A stretch of DNA of 64,000 bases, taken from assembly GCA_015061605.1 (NCBI GenBank), contig SUWH01000006.1:1-64000 (forward strand), written 5' to 3'. Below the pieces are notes generated by a model. That model saw only the letters and a list, made by a program, of their open reading frames with translations. It was not told where the DNA came from and ran no database searches. Source of the stretch: Lentisphaerota bacterium (GTDB taxonomy: Bacteria > Verrucomicrobiota > Lentisphaeria > Victivallales > Victivallaceae). This document shows, one piece after another, positions 31,263-37,451 of this stretch. A program made the translations under genes and the position numbers. Positions within the stretch are counted from its first letter, which is position 1. Each line of letters starts with the position of its first letter.

Positions 31263-32945
31263 ATGAAAAACATCCGAAATCAGGCATGGCAAGTGTCGAA
31301 CTTCCGTAAACTGCTTCTGGCATTATCCTGTTTTGCCGGAGGTACGCTCTACGCTGCTGCGCTGCCGCCATTGAACTGGAACTTTGCCGTTTTTGTTTCA
31401 TTGCTGCCGGTTTTGTACTGCGGATGCTGTTTCAAGTGGAAATTTTCCGCATTCTGCGGCTGGCTGTGGGGTGTCGGCTGGGCATTTTTCAGCTGCAATT
31501 TCCTCCGGGAGATCGAATGGTTCGTTCCATTTCTCATTGCTCCGGTACTGGGATTGTGGCCGGCGTTTTTTGCAGCACTTCTGCCGGGATTGAAAAATTT
31601 TACCTTATATCCGCCGGGATCTCTGCTTTGGAACACTGAAAAAAAATCTGAATACTTCTCAAATTCCCTGCCCTGGTACCGGATGATATTTTTCACCGTT
31701 TCCGGTGCGGTGCTTTTCACTCTTATCGAATGGACCAGATCGCGGCTCTTTGTCTGGAACGATTTCAGCGTCACCCAGTGGCGCAACCGTTATCTCATTC
31801 AAATTGCCTCACTTACCGGAAGCTACGGCATCGGCTTCATCGTTGCCGCCGTCAATACCGGGATTTTCGGAGCATTTTATTTCAAAAAGAACCGTTTTGT
31901 TCCGCTGATTTTCCCGGCACTCATCACCGCCGGAGCATTGCTCTACGGCAATTATCATATCAGAAAAATCGAAAATCTTCCGCCGTCAGAAACGACTTTG
32001 CGCGCCGGATTGATCCAGTGCGACCTTTCACAACGGCGGCATGCCACCAGTGCCCAGGTATTTGAAGCAATAAATGTGTGTACGGAACTTTCGGCACAAC
32101 TGGCAAAACAGAATCCTGAACTCATCATCTGGCCGGAAAGTGCCGTTCCCATCCCGCTGCAAAGCGGCGGGATAGAGGGAGATGTTTTCCGCCGGAAATT
32201 TGCCGGATTGCTCCGGAGCACCCAAATACCGCTGCTTGCCGGATTGATCGCATTCAAACCGGCAAAAGAAAGCGGCAAATGGCTTATAACCAACAGTGCG
32301 ATGCTTTTCAACAGCAAGGCTCTTGTTGGACGTTACGACAAAATTCACCGGGTTCCTTACGGAGAATATGTGCCGTTCCGTAAATATCTGCCGCAATCTC
32401 TGATTGATGCCGTCGACATGGGGCGCGACCTTGAGCCGGGAGATAATTATGCTCCCATCAATATCAAACCCGGAGTACGCGCTTCGATCGCCATCTGCTA
32501 CGAGGGGGTGTTCGGATATTTGATCCGGCAGTTTGCCCTGCGGGACAGCAATCTGCTTATCGTCTTATCCAACGATGCCTGGTATCCAAAGAGCAGCGAA
32601 CCCGAACAGCATCTTGCCAATGCGGTCATCCGTTCAATTGAAAGCGGTCTTTTTATGATCCGGTGCGGCAATAACGGCGGTTCGGGAGTGGTAACTCCGG
32701 ATGGTAAATTCACTCAATATATCGGCAGCAAAGCTGCACGTCCGGAACTTCTGCGGGAACGCGCCGCCGGTATCGTCGAGGTTCCGGTATATTCAGATTG
32801 GGTCAGAAGAACTTTTTTTGTAAAATACGGTGAATGGTTCATTTTGTTACTGGGAATTTATCTTTTTGCCCTTATTTCCGGATGGCTCATCCACACTTTC
32901 AAACTTAAAGAATATTCAAAACAACTTCTGGAGCATAAAAAATGA
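31263..32945 (+). CDS. lnt: Apolipoprotein N-acyltransferase
   Basis: A 560-residue inner-membrane enzyme that adds the third acyl chain to lipoproteins. About six membrane helices occupy residues 15-245. The periplasmic nitrilase domain follows, with the catalytic triad visible: Glu292 in IIWPESAVP, Lys360 in YDKIHRVPYGEYVPF and Cys412 in AICYEGVFG. A final membrane helix is near 530-550. Lnt is expected where an outer membrane and Lol-type sorting exist, fitting the several lipoproteins here. Its stop overlaps the marC start (ATGA). Confidence 0.95.
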   Translation: MKNIRNQAWQVSNFRKLLLALSCFAGGTLYAAALPPLNWNFAVFVSLLPVLYCGCCFKWKFSAFCGWLWGVGWAFFSCNFLREIEWFVPFLIAPVLGLWPAFFAALLPGLKNFTLYPPGSLLWNTEKKSEYFSNSLPWYRMIFFTVSGAVLFTLIEWTRSRLFVWNDFSVTQWRNRYLIQIASLTGSYGIGFIVAAVNTGIFGAFYFKKNRFVPLIFPALITAGALLYGNYHIRKIENLPPSETTLRAGLIQCDLSQRRHATSAQVFEAINVCTELSAQLAKQNPELIIWPESAVPIPLQSGGIEGDVFRRKFAGLLRSTQIPLLAGLIAFKPAKESGKWLITNSAMLFNSKALVGRYDKIHRVPYGEYVPFRKYLPQSLIDAVDMGRDLEPGDNYAPINIKPGVRASIAICYEGVFGYLIRQFALRDSNLLIVLSNDAWYPKSSEPEQHLANAVIRSIESGLFMIRCGNNGGSGVVTPDGKFTQYIGSKAARPELLRERAAGIVEVPVYSDWVRRTFFVKYGEWFILLLGIYLFALISGWLIHTFKLKEYSKQLLEHKK

Positions 32946-33553
32946 ATGAACAAGTAAAAATCATTATCGAAAACGCCCTCTACTTTATCGCACTGCTCAA
33001 TCCGGCAAGCAAAGTGATGTTTCTCTCCACCTATGAACCGAAACTGACTAAAAAGCAAATCTTTGAACTGTCGTGGAAATCCTCCACTGCGGCACTGCTC
33101 ATATTGATAACGCTTGCGACATTCGGTGAAATCGTTTTGAGTAAAATTTTCCGGGTGGAACTCTATTCACTTAAAATCACCGGCGGTATCGTTCTCTTTA
33201 TGATCGGACTTGTCGCCATCAGAGAAGGACATTTTGTCAACAAGGATGAACATCAGAAACAGATCGACTTCACCGATTTGTCCCTTATCCCGCTGGCGAC
33301 TCCGCTTATCGCCGGCCCCGGTATCATCGCTGCCGGTATTTCAACGGCTGCCCAGTATGGTGCCGTATCGGTGATAATTTCACTTTTTCTGGGAATTTTC
33401 ATCAACTTTGTGATCATGCTTTTTTCTTCCGGGATCAACCGGGTTCTGGAAAAACTCCATCTGCTCGGACCGCTTATCCGCCTGACCGGACTTATCATCT
33501 CCGGTGTGGCGGCGCAGATGATAATTAACGGAATCAAAGAGAGTCTGCGGTAA
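32942..33553 (+). CDS. marC: MarC-family integral membrane protein
   Basis: A 203-residue protein with about six hydrophobic helices and the family signatures LLNPASKVMFLS near the N-terminus, LKITGGIVLFMIGLVAI, and PLATPLIAGPGIIAAGIS. MarC proteins (UPF0056) were once thought linked to antibiotic resistance, but the transport function is unproven. It is coupled to lnt by an ATGA overlap. The C-terminus LTGLIISGVAAQMIINGI matches the family. Confidence 0.88.
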   Translation: MNEQVKIIIENALYFIALLNPASKVMFLSTYEPKLTKKQIFELSWKSSTAALLILITLATFGEIVLSKIFRVELYSLKITGGIVLFMIGLVAIREGHFVNKDEHQKQIDFTDLSLIPLATPLIAGPGIIAAGISTAAQYGAVSVIISLFLGIFINFVIMLFSSGINRVLEKLHLLGPLIRLTGLIISGVAAQMIINGIKESLR

Positions 33554-33689: not shown

Positions 33690-33717
33690 TTGACTATTGA
33701 TTTTTTTTGAGTATACT
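33690..33717 (+). promoter_or_regulatory. Strong promoter of the 58-codon gene
   Basis: TTGACT (33690-33695), a 16-base spacer and TATACT (33712-33717), preceded by long A and T tracts that resemble an UP element. It leaves a leader of about 55 bases. Confidence 0.75.
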
Positions 33718-33778
33718 ATCAAATGTCTCGTGAAAGATTTGTATTTGTATTCACACAAAAGTTAAGGAGAAGAAGAAA

Positions 33779-33955
33779 ATGGATCACACTTTCTATGATG
33801 TCAAGAACAAAAAATCTGTGACCACCAAGATCACCGAATGCGTTACCTACACCAAAGGCAGCCGCGTCAGCTACGCTTTCAAAGGCAAAACCGAAGACGG
33901 CCGCAACCTGACTGCTTTCGTCAAAAAAGAAGTCTGGGACAAAGCCAACAAGTAA
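33779..33955 (+). CDS. Small basic protein of 58 residues, unknown
   Basis: A 58-residue protein beginning MDHTFYDVKNKKSV and ending FVKKEVWDKANK. It is rich in Lys and Thr, has one Cys, and lacks a signal peptide or membrane helix. Alternating charged and aromatic residues suggest a small beta barrel. Support for a real gene: a near-consensus promoter, an AAGGAG site eight bases before the ATG, codon use like the highly expressed genes here, and a terminator 20 bases after the stop. I do not recognise the family; it could be a nucleic-acid-binding or ribosome-associated protein. Confidence 0.75.
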   Translation: MDHTFYDVKNKKSVTTKITECVTYTKGSRVSYAFKGKTEDGRNLTAFVKKEVWDKANK

Positions 33956-33975
33956 TTGTTGTTCTGACTGATAAG

Positions 33976-34008
33976 AAGCCTCCGTGTTATGCGGCGGCTT
34001 TTTTTTAT
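33976..34008 (+). terminator. Rho-independent terminator of the small gene
   Basis: AAGCCTCCG (33976-33984) pairs with CGGCGGCTT (33992-34000) with one mismatch and a seven-base loop, followed by a run of T residues to 34008. Confidence 0.85.
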
Positions 34009-34119
34009 TTTTGGCGGCGCATTGCGGGCGATCCCGCGTCTTGCTTCGTTCGCCGTCGCCGTCCTCTATTTTTTATGAGACATCGGTGCTTTTATTTGGA
34101 TAATTTTATATTTTCCGGT

Positions 34120-34207: not shown

Positions 34208-35788
34208 ATGCAAATTTCAGTTTATCGCAACAATATGCCGGTGGAAACTTTTGAATCGACTCCCGGAACTCTGCAGTCATTTAAAATAGTTCCCGTTTCA
34301 GGCAGTAATACCGTTATCAAACTGGCGATCCCGCTTATTGACATACACAGTTTCTGGTACAGCAACTGCAATGAATTTCATGTCCAGCTGGTCTGGCGGC
34401 TCAACTTCACTTGTGCGCTCAACCACAATATGCCCTATCTGGCATTTTTCAATCTCGCCCGGCAGCTCCGGTGCGCGGTGGCAACGGACAATCTGACCGA
34501 TGATACCAATTTTTCCGGTGCGATGAATCAGCAGGAGTGCACCTTTGACATCACCTTGGATTGTTCAGCCGAAAAGCCTTTTAATCTGATCATTGACCGC
34601 CGGGGGGATATCAGCTTTACTGAAAGCGTCGCCCAATGGAGAAAATCGGTCATGCCGGAAAATCTCTACTTCCCATCCGCCGCATGGGAACCGGTTTTCT
34701 GTACCTGGTATGCCGTTCACGGCGAAGTAACTGCCAAATGGATCGAACGTCAGGCGATCAAAGCCCGTGCGCTGGGATTCGGTACATTGATCGTGGATGA
34801 CGGCTGGTGCTACGATGAAGCGAAGCGGGTCAATCCGCAGACCATCGTCAACTGGTACAACACCATCGGTGACTGGAACATCTCTGAAACCAAGTTCCCG
34901 GATTTCAAAGAGCATGTGAAAAAAATTCAGAGTACCGGACTGAAATATCTGCTCTGGATCGCCCCGCATCTTATCGGAACTGACAGCAAGTTCTACGCTG
35001 AACATCCGGACTGGACACTTCCGGATACTCCCCACGAAGGCTACCGGCGGCTTGATGTCGCCAAACATCCGGCAGTTGACTATCTGGCGGAAAAATTCGT
35101 TTCACTTGCCGTGGATAACGGTTTGGACGGTTTGAAAATCGACTTTCTGAATATTGTCCGCCCGGATGCGGCTTCACCGATCGGAAACAATAACAAACTT
35201 CTTCTGGAAAAAGTCTGCAATAAATTGCGGGAAAAGAATCCCGATGCCCTTATTGAGTTCCGTCAGGCATACGCTACGATCGGGATGCTCCCGTACGCAA
35301 CCCAGTTCCGGGTCGGCGATGTGCCGTTTGACTGGGCACTTAACTTCCGGCGCATGGTGGATATCCGCATTTCGCTTGGCGACGGGATACCCATTCATGC
35401 TGATCCTGCCTACTGGGGGCCGGAAGAGTATCCGGAAAATGTCGCCCGCCACATGATGATCATGCTGCTGGGAGTCCCCATGCTCTCCATGGATCTGAAT
35501 ACGCTCCCGGCAGAACATCTTTCCATTGTCCAGTACTATCTCGCCCTTTACAAAGCAAAACAGCAACTGCTCAACTCCGGACACTGGAATATTCTTTTCA
35601 GTTCCGGCAATGCCGGTGTCGCCATGGCGGAAGATGAAAATGAAGTTCTGGCGATCATCATGGATGATACGTTGCTGGACAAAGTGATCCAAGCTGCCAA
35701 CGGACGGAAACTTACTTTGCTCAATATCTCTGCAGAAACACTTCACTTTGACGGCAAAACTGCCGCTCCGGGTGAAACCATCTGCTGA
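34208..35788 (+). CDS. Alpha-galactosidase-like glycoside hydrolase (GH36/melibiase type)
   Basis: A 526-residue protein without a signal peptide. A short beta-sandwich region (1-150) is followed by a TIM barrel with TLIVDDGWCYDE (about 193-204), LKYLLWIAPHLIG and DGLKIDFLN, whose Asp312 is the expected nucleophile (K-x-D). DVPFDWALNFRRM (about 377-389) is the candidate acid/base region. The usual GH36 SGGGR segment is replaced by RQAY, so substrate preference may differ from plain alpha-galactosidase. The protein is probably cytosolic and would act on imported oligosaccharides. Its last 46 bases overlap the tail of the gene on the other strand. Confidence 0.8.
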   Translation: MQISVYRNNMPVETFESTPGTLQSFKIVPVSGSNTVIKLAIPLIDIHSFWYSNCNEFHVQLVWRLNFTCALNHNMPYLAFFNLARQLRCAVATDNLTDDTNFSGAMNQQECTFDITLDCSAEKPFNLIIDRRGDISFTESVAQWRKSVMPENLYFPSAAWEPVFCTWYAVHGEVTAKWIERQAIKARALGFGTLIVDDGWCYDEAKRVNPQTIVNWYNTIGDWNISETKFPDFKEHVKKIQSTGLKYLLWIAPHLIGTDSKFYAEHPDWTLPDTPHEGYRRLDVAKHPAVDYLAEKFVSLAVDNGLDGLKIDFLNIVRPDAASPIGNNNKLLLEKVCNKLREKNPDALIEFRQAYATIGMLPYATQFRVGDVPFDWALNFRRMVDIRISLGDGIPIHADPAYWGPEEYPENVARHMMIMLLGVPMLSMDLNTLPAEHLSIVQYYLALYKAKQQLLNSGHWNILFSSGNAGVAMAEDENEVLAIIMDDTLLDKVIQAANGRKLTLLNISAETLHFDGKTAAPGETIC

Positions 35789-36582: not shown

Positions 36583-37451
36583 CTTTTGAACTCCGGATCA
36601 TAACTTGAATTATCTTGAGACAAATAGCCGACCAGCAATGCCTTGTTCGCTCTGGAAGTTATAAAAATTTCCCGCAAAGAGTTGACATGACCATCGGCAA
36701 AACAAACATTTGCACTCTTTAAATGACGGAAATGGGTCAACCCGCCCCCGCGAATGATTCCATTTCGCCCATCGGGAGCATACAGTGCCGAAGTCGGTAT
36801 CAGACGGCTGTGGTCATAATAATCCATTGCCGCCGCATCAGCAAACATCACGGTTTCCGACGGACGGCGCAGGGCGGATGTTTTGACTCCGGCAAAAAGA
36901 TCCGGTTCAAAACCAAGAAATTCATTGTAACCGTAACCGGAATTTTCCGCGCTCCAACTCTTGTCCAGAAAATTTTCCGGACAACGGTTGACTCCGCCTG
37001 ATTTACCGTTGGCATTGAGAAAGCGCTCCAATATCCCGGCAGAATTTTCTTTATCTTCAACACCGCTGCTGTCGCTTGCCCAATCCCAGTAGACCATCGA
37101 ATAATCACTGGCAAGATAATATGCCGGACAGAACCAGGAACTGTTCATGTCGGTATACTGCATCTGCATAACGCCCAATTGCTTCAAGTTGGAAACACAA
37201 CTTGCACTCCGCCCCCGTGACCGCGCACTCTGCAATACCGGAAGTAGCATCGCCGCCAGTATCGCAATGATGGCAATTACTACCAGCAATTCTATTAAAG
37301 TGAAATGGGCGTGTGCGGGGGACAAAGGAAACTTTTTTTCACGGGAAAAAAAGTTTCCTCTTTCCCCCGCGCCCCCTTTCTTTTTCAAAAAAAGCGGGGA
37401 GTTTTGCGGCTCCCGTTGGTTGCGACAAGTCAATTGCGGCAATATGATCAT
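36579..37451 (-). CDS. Prepilin-like protein with H-X9-DG motif
   Basis: A 290-residue protein. [24 protein letters not shown] begins at about residue 50 and is the class III/type II pseudopilin N-terminus, with Glu at +5. [18 protein letters not shown] follows, and near the C-terminus is [12 protein letters not shown], the H-X9-DG motif of the PVC prepilin family. The residue before Phe is His, not the usual Gly. The leader is unusually long and is encoded by a repeat with a 26-base-arm hairpin (37315-37370). The ATG at 37451 has only a weak AGG site, so a later start is possible. It is third in the operon 38580 to 35743. Confidence 0.8.
37315..37370. repeat. Long hairpin inside the prepilin leader codons
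   Basis: Arms 37315-37340 and 37345-37370 pair over 26 bases with two mismatches. The inner 14 bases (37327-37340 with 37345-37358) are perfect, with a four-base loop. On the coding (minus) strand it ends about 15 bases before the FTLIE codons. Confidence 0.85.
37381..37407 (+). repeat. CAAAAAAAGCGGGG dispersed repeat, copy in a prepilin leader
   Basis: TTTTTCAAAAAAAGCGGGG then AGTTTTGCGG, next to the long hairpin. It is read antisense by the prepilin gene, encoding leader residues near [10 protein letters not shown]. Confidence 0.65.

Follow-up and report, generated by a model that had tools for sequence, protein, structure and literature searches.

By predicted fold, the nearest described counterparts of the protein reported here are Cren7 and Sul7d (Sso7d), and Cren7 as the nearest solved structure to our model is a suggestive match only. 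According to PMC5906684, both proteins contact DNA through a sheet face and Sul7d is confined to a few crenarchaeal genera; the paper argues that Cren7/Sul7 derive from a zinc ribbon through loss of the zinc ligands. Its main text makes no mention of 'Lentisphaera', 'Verrucomicrobia' or 'PVC', and our search of the open-licence literature found no paper that joins DUF5679 or Cren7 with Lentisphaer-.

The window analyzed in this study, a stretch of 64,000 nucleotides from a Lentisphaerota bacterium, contains a 58-codon gene whose product is predicted to resemble Cren7 in fold and size, with 53 of its 58 residues aligned at about 2.0 Å (Z 6.2). Like Cren7, the protein is basic, monomer-sized and single-domain, and its history may have run parallel to that argued for Cren7 in PMC5906684, namely, descent from a zinc ribbon whose metal ligands disappeared. 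However, sequence identity to Cren7 is 6%, and no sequence homology was detected. Cren7 is archaeal (Crenarchaeota/Bathyarchaeota group), whereas the relatives found of our protein are bacterial or phage-borne, and neither the residue that Cren7 inserts into DNA nor the intercalating residues of Cren7/Sul7d are evidently conserved among them. The small basic barrel and C-terminal helix predicted for our protein would resemble those of Sul7d, but again sequence homology was not detected. HU/IHF proteins (PF00216), which are likewise small, basic and abundant DNA binders, may be its functional company but are unrelated in sequence; PF00216 was absent from the Pfam matches of the window protein at E values up to 10. 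Shared ancestry is well supported by sequence comparison for another group, the DUF5679 zinc ribbons (PF18930), to which the protein and its relatives are detectably related without being members. We refer to these relatives as the zinc-less family.

The gene, its signals and codon usage

The preliminary description had placed a near-consensus promoter, an AAGGAG site and a clean terminator around a gene for a 58-residue basic protein, and each of these elements was recovered (Table 1). The predicted product has a pI of 9.6 and a net charge of +6. The terminator, a hairpin followed by a U run, folds at -15.3 kcal/mol (z -4.06), a value equalled by 1 of 200 shuffles. Between 33540 and 34220, six promoter-like sites were counted versus 1.8 ± 1.2 in shuffles.

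Table 1. Features of the 58-codon locus and its flanks (window positions)
Feature	Position	Strand	Basis
MarC-like gene (presumed)	32942-33553	+	read off translation, not from search
Promoter: -35 TTGACT 33690-33695, 16-nt spacer, -10 TATACT 33712-33717	33690-33717	+	consensus scan, 10/12 matches
Ribosome-binding site AAGGAG	33764-33769	+	sequence; 9 nt before ATG
58-codon gene, ATG to TAA	33779-33955	+	conservation, codon bias, dN/dS, model, DUF5679 relation
Intrinsic terminator, G+C-rich hairpin then T run	33973-34006	+	RNA fold within 33970-34006
Glycoside-hydrolase-like gene (presumed)	34208-35788	+	read off translation, not from search

Comparable signals were counted at 29 of 31 homologous loci, with L001 (a duplicate of the window locus) and L029 omitted. 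A terminator-like hairpin followed the gene at 19 loci versus 7.2% of shuffles, and a purine-rich SD-like word lay within 20 nt upstream at 28, a count made without a shuffle control. Promoter-like sites with at least 10 of 12 matches were present upstream at 9 loci versus 8.3% of shuffles; lowering the threshold to 9 of 12 raised this to 19 loci, a weak result against 37% of shuffles. No neighboring gene was common to more than 7 of 80 family loci, except for one cluster of 20, whose representative ORF runs antisense to the 58-codon gene over a phage tail gene. With signals of its own and no widely shared neighbor, the gene fits an independent transcription unit, in line with the stand-alone arrangement originally proposed.

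Directly after the terminator, at 34013-34055, lies a REP-like dispersed repeat of about 43 bp; the genome contains 31 other matches to it, mostly at 88 to 95% identity. Rfam returned three sub-threshold matches, none convincing. Elsewhere in the window, four prepilin-like genes with an FTLIEL leader were noted at 37304 (-), 38496 (-), 50253 (+) and 51248 (+).

Codon usage was evaluated against seven ribosomal/EF-G genes of the same genome; the L2 gene was located by search, and the other six were recognized by eye and are presumed to be what their sequences suggest. The 58-codon gene reached a codon adaptation index of 0.817, above all seven reference genes (0.714 to 0.760), an extreme bias in line with the efficient codon use first noted for it. 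None of 55 window ORFs of at least 150 amino acids, some of which may be spurious, attained this value (best, 0.771), nor did any of 2,000 random synonymous recodings (mean, 0.559; standard deviation, 0.065). The codon usage suggests that the protein is probably abundant. Purifying selection acts on the frame. Relative to the nearest homologue (L003), dN was 0.015 and dS 0.455, and 12 of the 14 differences affected third codon positions; 14 further homologues gave dN values of 0.21 to 0.31 and dS values of 0.75 to 1.61. Conservation of the reading frame in related genomes, on which the proposal had been made to depend, was thus found.

Occurrence in bacteria and phages

Searching with the 58-residue query revealed relatives in 48 of 60 genomes, its own included. 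When 387 genomes of the phylum were searched with profile A1, 111 matched, and every one of these belongs to the class Lentisphaeria; the genomes without a match comprised 20 of the class and 256 others, which a comparison of genome lists placed outside it. Profile A2 matched 118 of 148 Lentisphaeria genomes and 71 of the 77 good ones (completeness of 90% or more, contamination of 5% or less). A profile search across PVC genomes, suggested beforehand as a check, therefore works within Lentisphaeria, but the family, found in this one class among the 387 genomes of the phylum, is not general to PVC bacteria. One genome of 6.7 Mb (G305) holds nine family matches and eight HU matches, either a real expansion or a mixed assembly.

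In a second, KSB1-type phylum (records named Calditrichaeota, KSB1 or Bacteroidetes), 18 of 82 genomes carry a clear family match. Contamination is unlikely here, because several independent genomes carry the gene. No archaeal record was present among the best 80 of 152 loci from a pattern scan of genome contigs, and plasmid records gave no match to the family. Beside the zinc-less gene, a gene that we take to be of the nnr type (NAD(P)H-hydrate repair) was seen in 9 of 80 loci of the Lentisphaeria scan, on the same strand (L060, L062, L074, L089, L092, L093, L096, L098 and L107); in the KSB1-type phylum, several DUF5679 genes likewise have such a gene upstream.

The zinc-less gene was further found on 15 viral contigs. 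Fourteen of them (L148 to L161) hold at least four of the six proteins of one phage structural module, in which four proteins match PHROG families (portal, tape measure, major tail and tail completion) and two match none. The zinc-less gene adjoins the tail-completion gene on the opposite strand and, by analogy, sits like an accessory (moron) gene. The same module was present at three of nine tested bacterial loci (L084, L099 and L101), which indicates that prophage copies exist. The 15th contig (L162) encodes a phage-type exonuclease and DNA methyltransferase. The gene-bearing phages and prophages with the module form one group of rumen phages. No match to the family was obtained from cultured-phage records or in a viral scan with profile A4, built from 16 zinc-less members of the KSB1-type phylum.

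Predicted fold and candidate functions

AlphaFold2, supplied with a 92-sequence alignment, predicted a small four-strand beta barrel with a C-terminal helix (mean pLDDT, 90.5; pTM, 0.66), with strands at residues 2 to 7, 12 to 26, 29 to 37 and 43 to 48 and the helix at 50 to 57. In a VIA-align comparison, the top 11 matches to this model were all Cren7 (2jtm is Cren7), with Z scores of 5.3 to 6.2 and rmsd values of 1.8 to 2.8 Å over 49 to 53 residues; the next match was unrelated (Z 4.6). Matches become trustworthy at a Z score of 8, and lower scores may reflect no more than a shared arrangement, so we take this as support rather than proof. Native Sul7d chains were absent among the 50 VIA-align matches listed, which excludes nothing. 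Foldseek returned nothing at an E value of 0.001 or better, all of its matches having E values of 0.65 or worse. The engineered, Sso7d-derived binder 5zau ranked first with a TM score of only 0.40, followed by Cren7 6a2i (E 0.74; probability, 0.93; TM 0.67/0.68). The model of a DUF5679 protein (pLDDT, 87.0) showed the same strand order without the helix, and its best matches did not separate Cren7 (4.3) from ribosomal large-subunit chains (4.1) or NrdR (3.9). At the level of sequence profiles, hhalign gave an E value of 0.58 for the family against Cren7/Sso7d, a weak test with a two-sequence profile, and no match for DUF5679 against Cren7/Sso7d.

Net charge is positive in 91 of the 92 aligned members (median, +8), and pI exceeds 8.5 in 90. 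Judging from strand alternation in the predicted model, positions 31, 33, 35, 45 and 47 would share one face of the sheet, the face with which Cren7 and Sul7d touch DNA, and they are highly conserved: R31 in 80 of the 92 members, A33 in 89, K or R35 in 87, T45 in 89 and F47 in 90. A basic family, a conserved face, strong codon bias and a stand-alone unit together favor an abundant nucleic-acid binder that acts independently of sequence. We consider binding to nucleic acid probable. Our preferred reading of the whole, an abundant stand-alone nucleic-acid-binding protein that is most likely a Cren7-like DNA binder, is held tentatively, and a role in coating DNA is possible.

According to this preferred reading, a small, basic and probably abundant protein would fold as a stand-alone beta barrel. 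It would have descended from a common ancestor with DUF5679 after replacement or deletion of all four zinc-binding cysteines (at D7, N10, T38 and a gap beside D40). With these ligands gone, nothing but the hydrophobic core would hold the barrel together, a situation also proposed for Cren7. The basic sheet face formed by the five positions above would bind nucleic acid, most likely double-stranded DNA, without sequence specificity. The protein may coat or bend DNA beside HU, and rumen phages may carry their own copy for the same purpose. Replacement of HU was considered and rejected, because HU was present in 142 of 148 Lentisphaeria genomes, including that of the window (G000:C42:91146-91415). 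No DNA-packing role is therefore vacant, a point against the preferred reading, and the zinc-less protein would have to act alongside HU.

For several ribosomal proteins, zinc-less forms replace zinc forms. The basic 58-residue protein could likewise be an RNA- or ribosome-associated small barrel, bound to rRNA, tRNA or mRNA, whose zinc-less form stands in for the zinc form. Codon bias equal to or above that of ribosomal genes is consistent with such a role, as are the tied matches of the DUF5679 model to ribosomal large-subunit zinc-ribbon chains (Z 3.6 to 4.1), the rank of eIF5A/EF-P among its first Foldseek matches and the appearance of eIF5A for the zinc-less model as well (Z up to 4.4). 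However, Cren7 stands about 1.5 Z units above such matches for the zinc-less model, and no ribosomal operon setting was seen around loci whose neighbors, the cluster of 20 apart, are so rarely shared. We regard an RNA-associated role as doubtful, although it fares best among the alternatives to DNA binding.

Many SH3-like barrels and zinc ribbons bind proteins, but for the zinc-less protein a partner such as RNA polymerase or some other housekeeping complex is unlikely. In favor of it, many zinc ribbons belong to protein complexes, the predicted topology of the barrel is SH3-like, and the aromatic and polar positions 5, 6, 45 and 47 are strongly conserved. The high positive charge of nearly all members argues against it, as does a codon bias suggesting amounts beyond the needs of most partner-specific adaptors, and no conserved partner gene adjoins the zinc-less gene.

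Relation to DUF5679 zinc ribbons and its implications

When profile A2 was run against the KSB1-type phylum, its 19th match was a weak one (G487; E 0.008) at the site of that genome's DUF5679 gene, which was not counted as zinc-less. On the basis of this match, the relation to DUF5679 was put to the test. With A2, 19 of 25 DUF5679 proteins outscored all 1,000 shuffles (best E, 3.2e-4), and the same 19 outscored all but one of 11,988 background ORFs, the sole exception, at 102 bits, being evidently an unfiltered family member. The 19 are not independent, because DUF5679 proteins are related to one another. Profile A4 gave a best E value of 3.8e-5, with 6 of 25 DUF5679 proteins above all controls. 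In the reverse direction, the DUF5679 profile (A3) placed 20 of 108 zinc-less members above all controls (best E, 1.6e-3). hhalign comparisons of the two families returned E values of 0.0016 and 0.0021 at probabilities of 15.8% and 13.6%, a weak result whose register nevertheless agrees.

A joint alignment placed the DUF5679 cysteines at the four window positions named above; in 16 KSB1-type relatives, the corresponding positions are D, L/M, T and a gap. The register of the cysteines was also read from a set of 91 members that remained once near-identical ones were dropped. No cysteine occurs at alignment position 7 or 38 in any of 92 members. One register extends over the first 36 to 40 positions, within which the YxVKxRKKV and GRxALKGK motifs match DUF5679. 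The two families are also similar in length and predicted strand order. In contrast to DUF5679, the zinc-less family lacks all four zinc-binding cysteines, has an added C-terminal helix and, in most members, carries a three-residue insertion at the turn between the third and fourth strands; where the insertion is missing (e.g., in L137, L138 and L269), the NGR turn seen in DUF5679 is retained. We infer that zinc was lost rather than gained.

Cysteines do occur elsewhere in some members. Five members of one deep Lentisphaeria family (L136, L137, L138, L273 and L274), in which the knuckle cysteines are gone, have cysteine-rich tails, such as KCCCKKK and CCGSKPSAGCCGAK. In a long-turn, FYNVKK-type subfamily (L128 to L132, L140, L142 and L147), two cysteines lie outside the DUF5679 ligand positions, a conserved one around position 20 and a second close to the C terminus.

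Both forms were also found in the same genomic slot. In this slot, where all genes lie on the same strand, three genes that we take, from their sequences, to be nnr-type, membrane and outer-membrane-like, in that order, precede either the zinc-less or the DUF5679 gene, and a presumed PHP-type gene follows it. All four neighbors accompany the zinc-less gene in G427 (L100 and L195, which are the same gene) and G468 (L202), two of the 18 zinc-less genomes of the KSB1-type phylum, and neither of these genomes has a DUF5679 match. The same four surround DUF5679 genes at L210, L220 and L223, where their order is retained and their distances are similar, and three further DUF5679 loci (L219, L221 and L222) have the three upstream neighbors in common. 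Within Lentisphaeria, no common gene order of zinc-less and DUF5679 genes was found.

The two forms tend to occur in different genomes. In 81 genomes of the KSB1-type phylum, 17 carried the zinc-less form, 37 carried DUF5679 and none carried both (Fisher P = 1e-5, a value that ignores kinship); the 18th zinc-less genome, G457, lies outside this set. DUF5679 scored over the cutoff in 17 of 148 Lentisphaeria genomes, with the under-cutoff matches in G176, G317 and G370 not counted. It was present in 11 of 30 genomes without the zinc-less form versus 6 of 118 with it (P = 2.3e-5, again ignoring kinship). A first sample of the phylum had contained DUF5679 in 0 of 59 genomes, a sampling effect in view of the larger class sample. 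Strict mutual exclusion, considered as a rule, holds in the KSB1-type sample but is broken by six Lentisphaeria genomes with both forms (G131, G258, G402, G407, G418 and G424), which indicates that the two can be paralogues. The zinc-less member in G131, G258 and G402 is of the long-turn FYNVKK/FYSVKK type.

Short sequences, the low hhalign probability, positional evidence from two genomes and the lack of a common gene order within Lentisphaeria leave some room for convergence of short basic hairpin proteins, with the shared slot explained by replacement with an unrelated gene. We consider this improbable, since profile matches in both directions exceed shuffles and background, the single register carries matching motifs, insertion-free forms retain the NGR turn and the strand order of both predicted models is identical.

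The preliminary description did not recognize the family, and searches of Pfam, NCBIfam, PHROG and PDB sequences bear this out, none of them yielding a convincing match (best E, 0.011; nothing above a curated cutoff). CutA1, DUF4258 and other weak Pfam/NCBIfam matches were rejected at E values of 0.011 or worse, under their cutoffs, and the Pfam model of DUF5679 itself matched neither the window protein nor 30 relatives and 10 divergent relatives at E values up to 10. In view of its relation to DUF5679, however, the family is not isolated.

Another small protein of PVC bacteria, the PVC signature protein (CT421.2 of Chlamydia and relatives), reportedly binds DNA and RNA unspecifically, according to a 2014 report. 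Identity with it is very improbable as judged from published descriptions: PMC3444138 assigns that protein, which has about 53 amino acids in Chlamydiaceae, to every sequenced member of the Chlamydiae, Verrucomicrobia, Lentisphaerae and Planctomycetes, but the 111 genome matches of our family, from a profile run within its own phylum, were all in Lentisphaeria. That the 58-codon ORF is open merely by chance, for which only its short length speaks, is already refuted by conservation across the class and a second phylum, together with third-position and codon bias.

With shared ancestry of the two forms as the better explanation, loss of the metal site can be traced gene for gene at one locus, a bacterial case beside that of archaeal Cren7. 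The link gives an undescribed zinc ribbon a functional partner, so that each form can inform the other. Apparently, the zinc-less gene is among the most codon-optimized genes of its genome and is near-universal in its class, whose members live in guts and in the environment. The furthest-reaching interpretation is that Lentisphaeria coat their DNA with a major protein equivalent to Cren7/Sul7d, which arose separately from a bacterial zinc ribbon through zinc loss, is near-universal in the class and was acquired by their phages; we rate it as rather unlikely. If it is true, the path from a zinc ribbon to a zinc-free chromatin barrel would have been taken at least twice, and both ends of the change, as well as the slot in which it took place, would survive in living genomes. 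If a role in DNA packing applies, the gene would represent a new type of bacterial chromatin protein, missed because it has only 58 residues.
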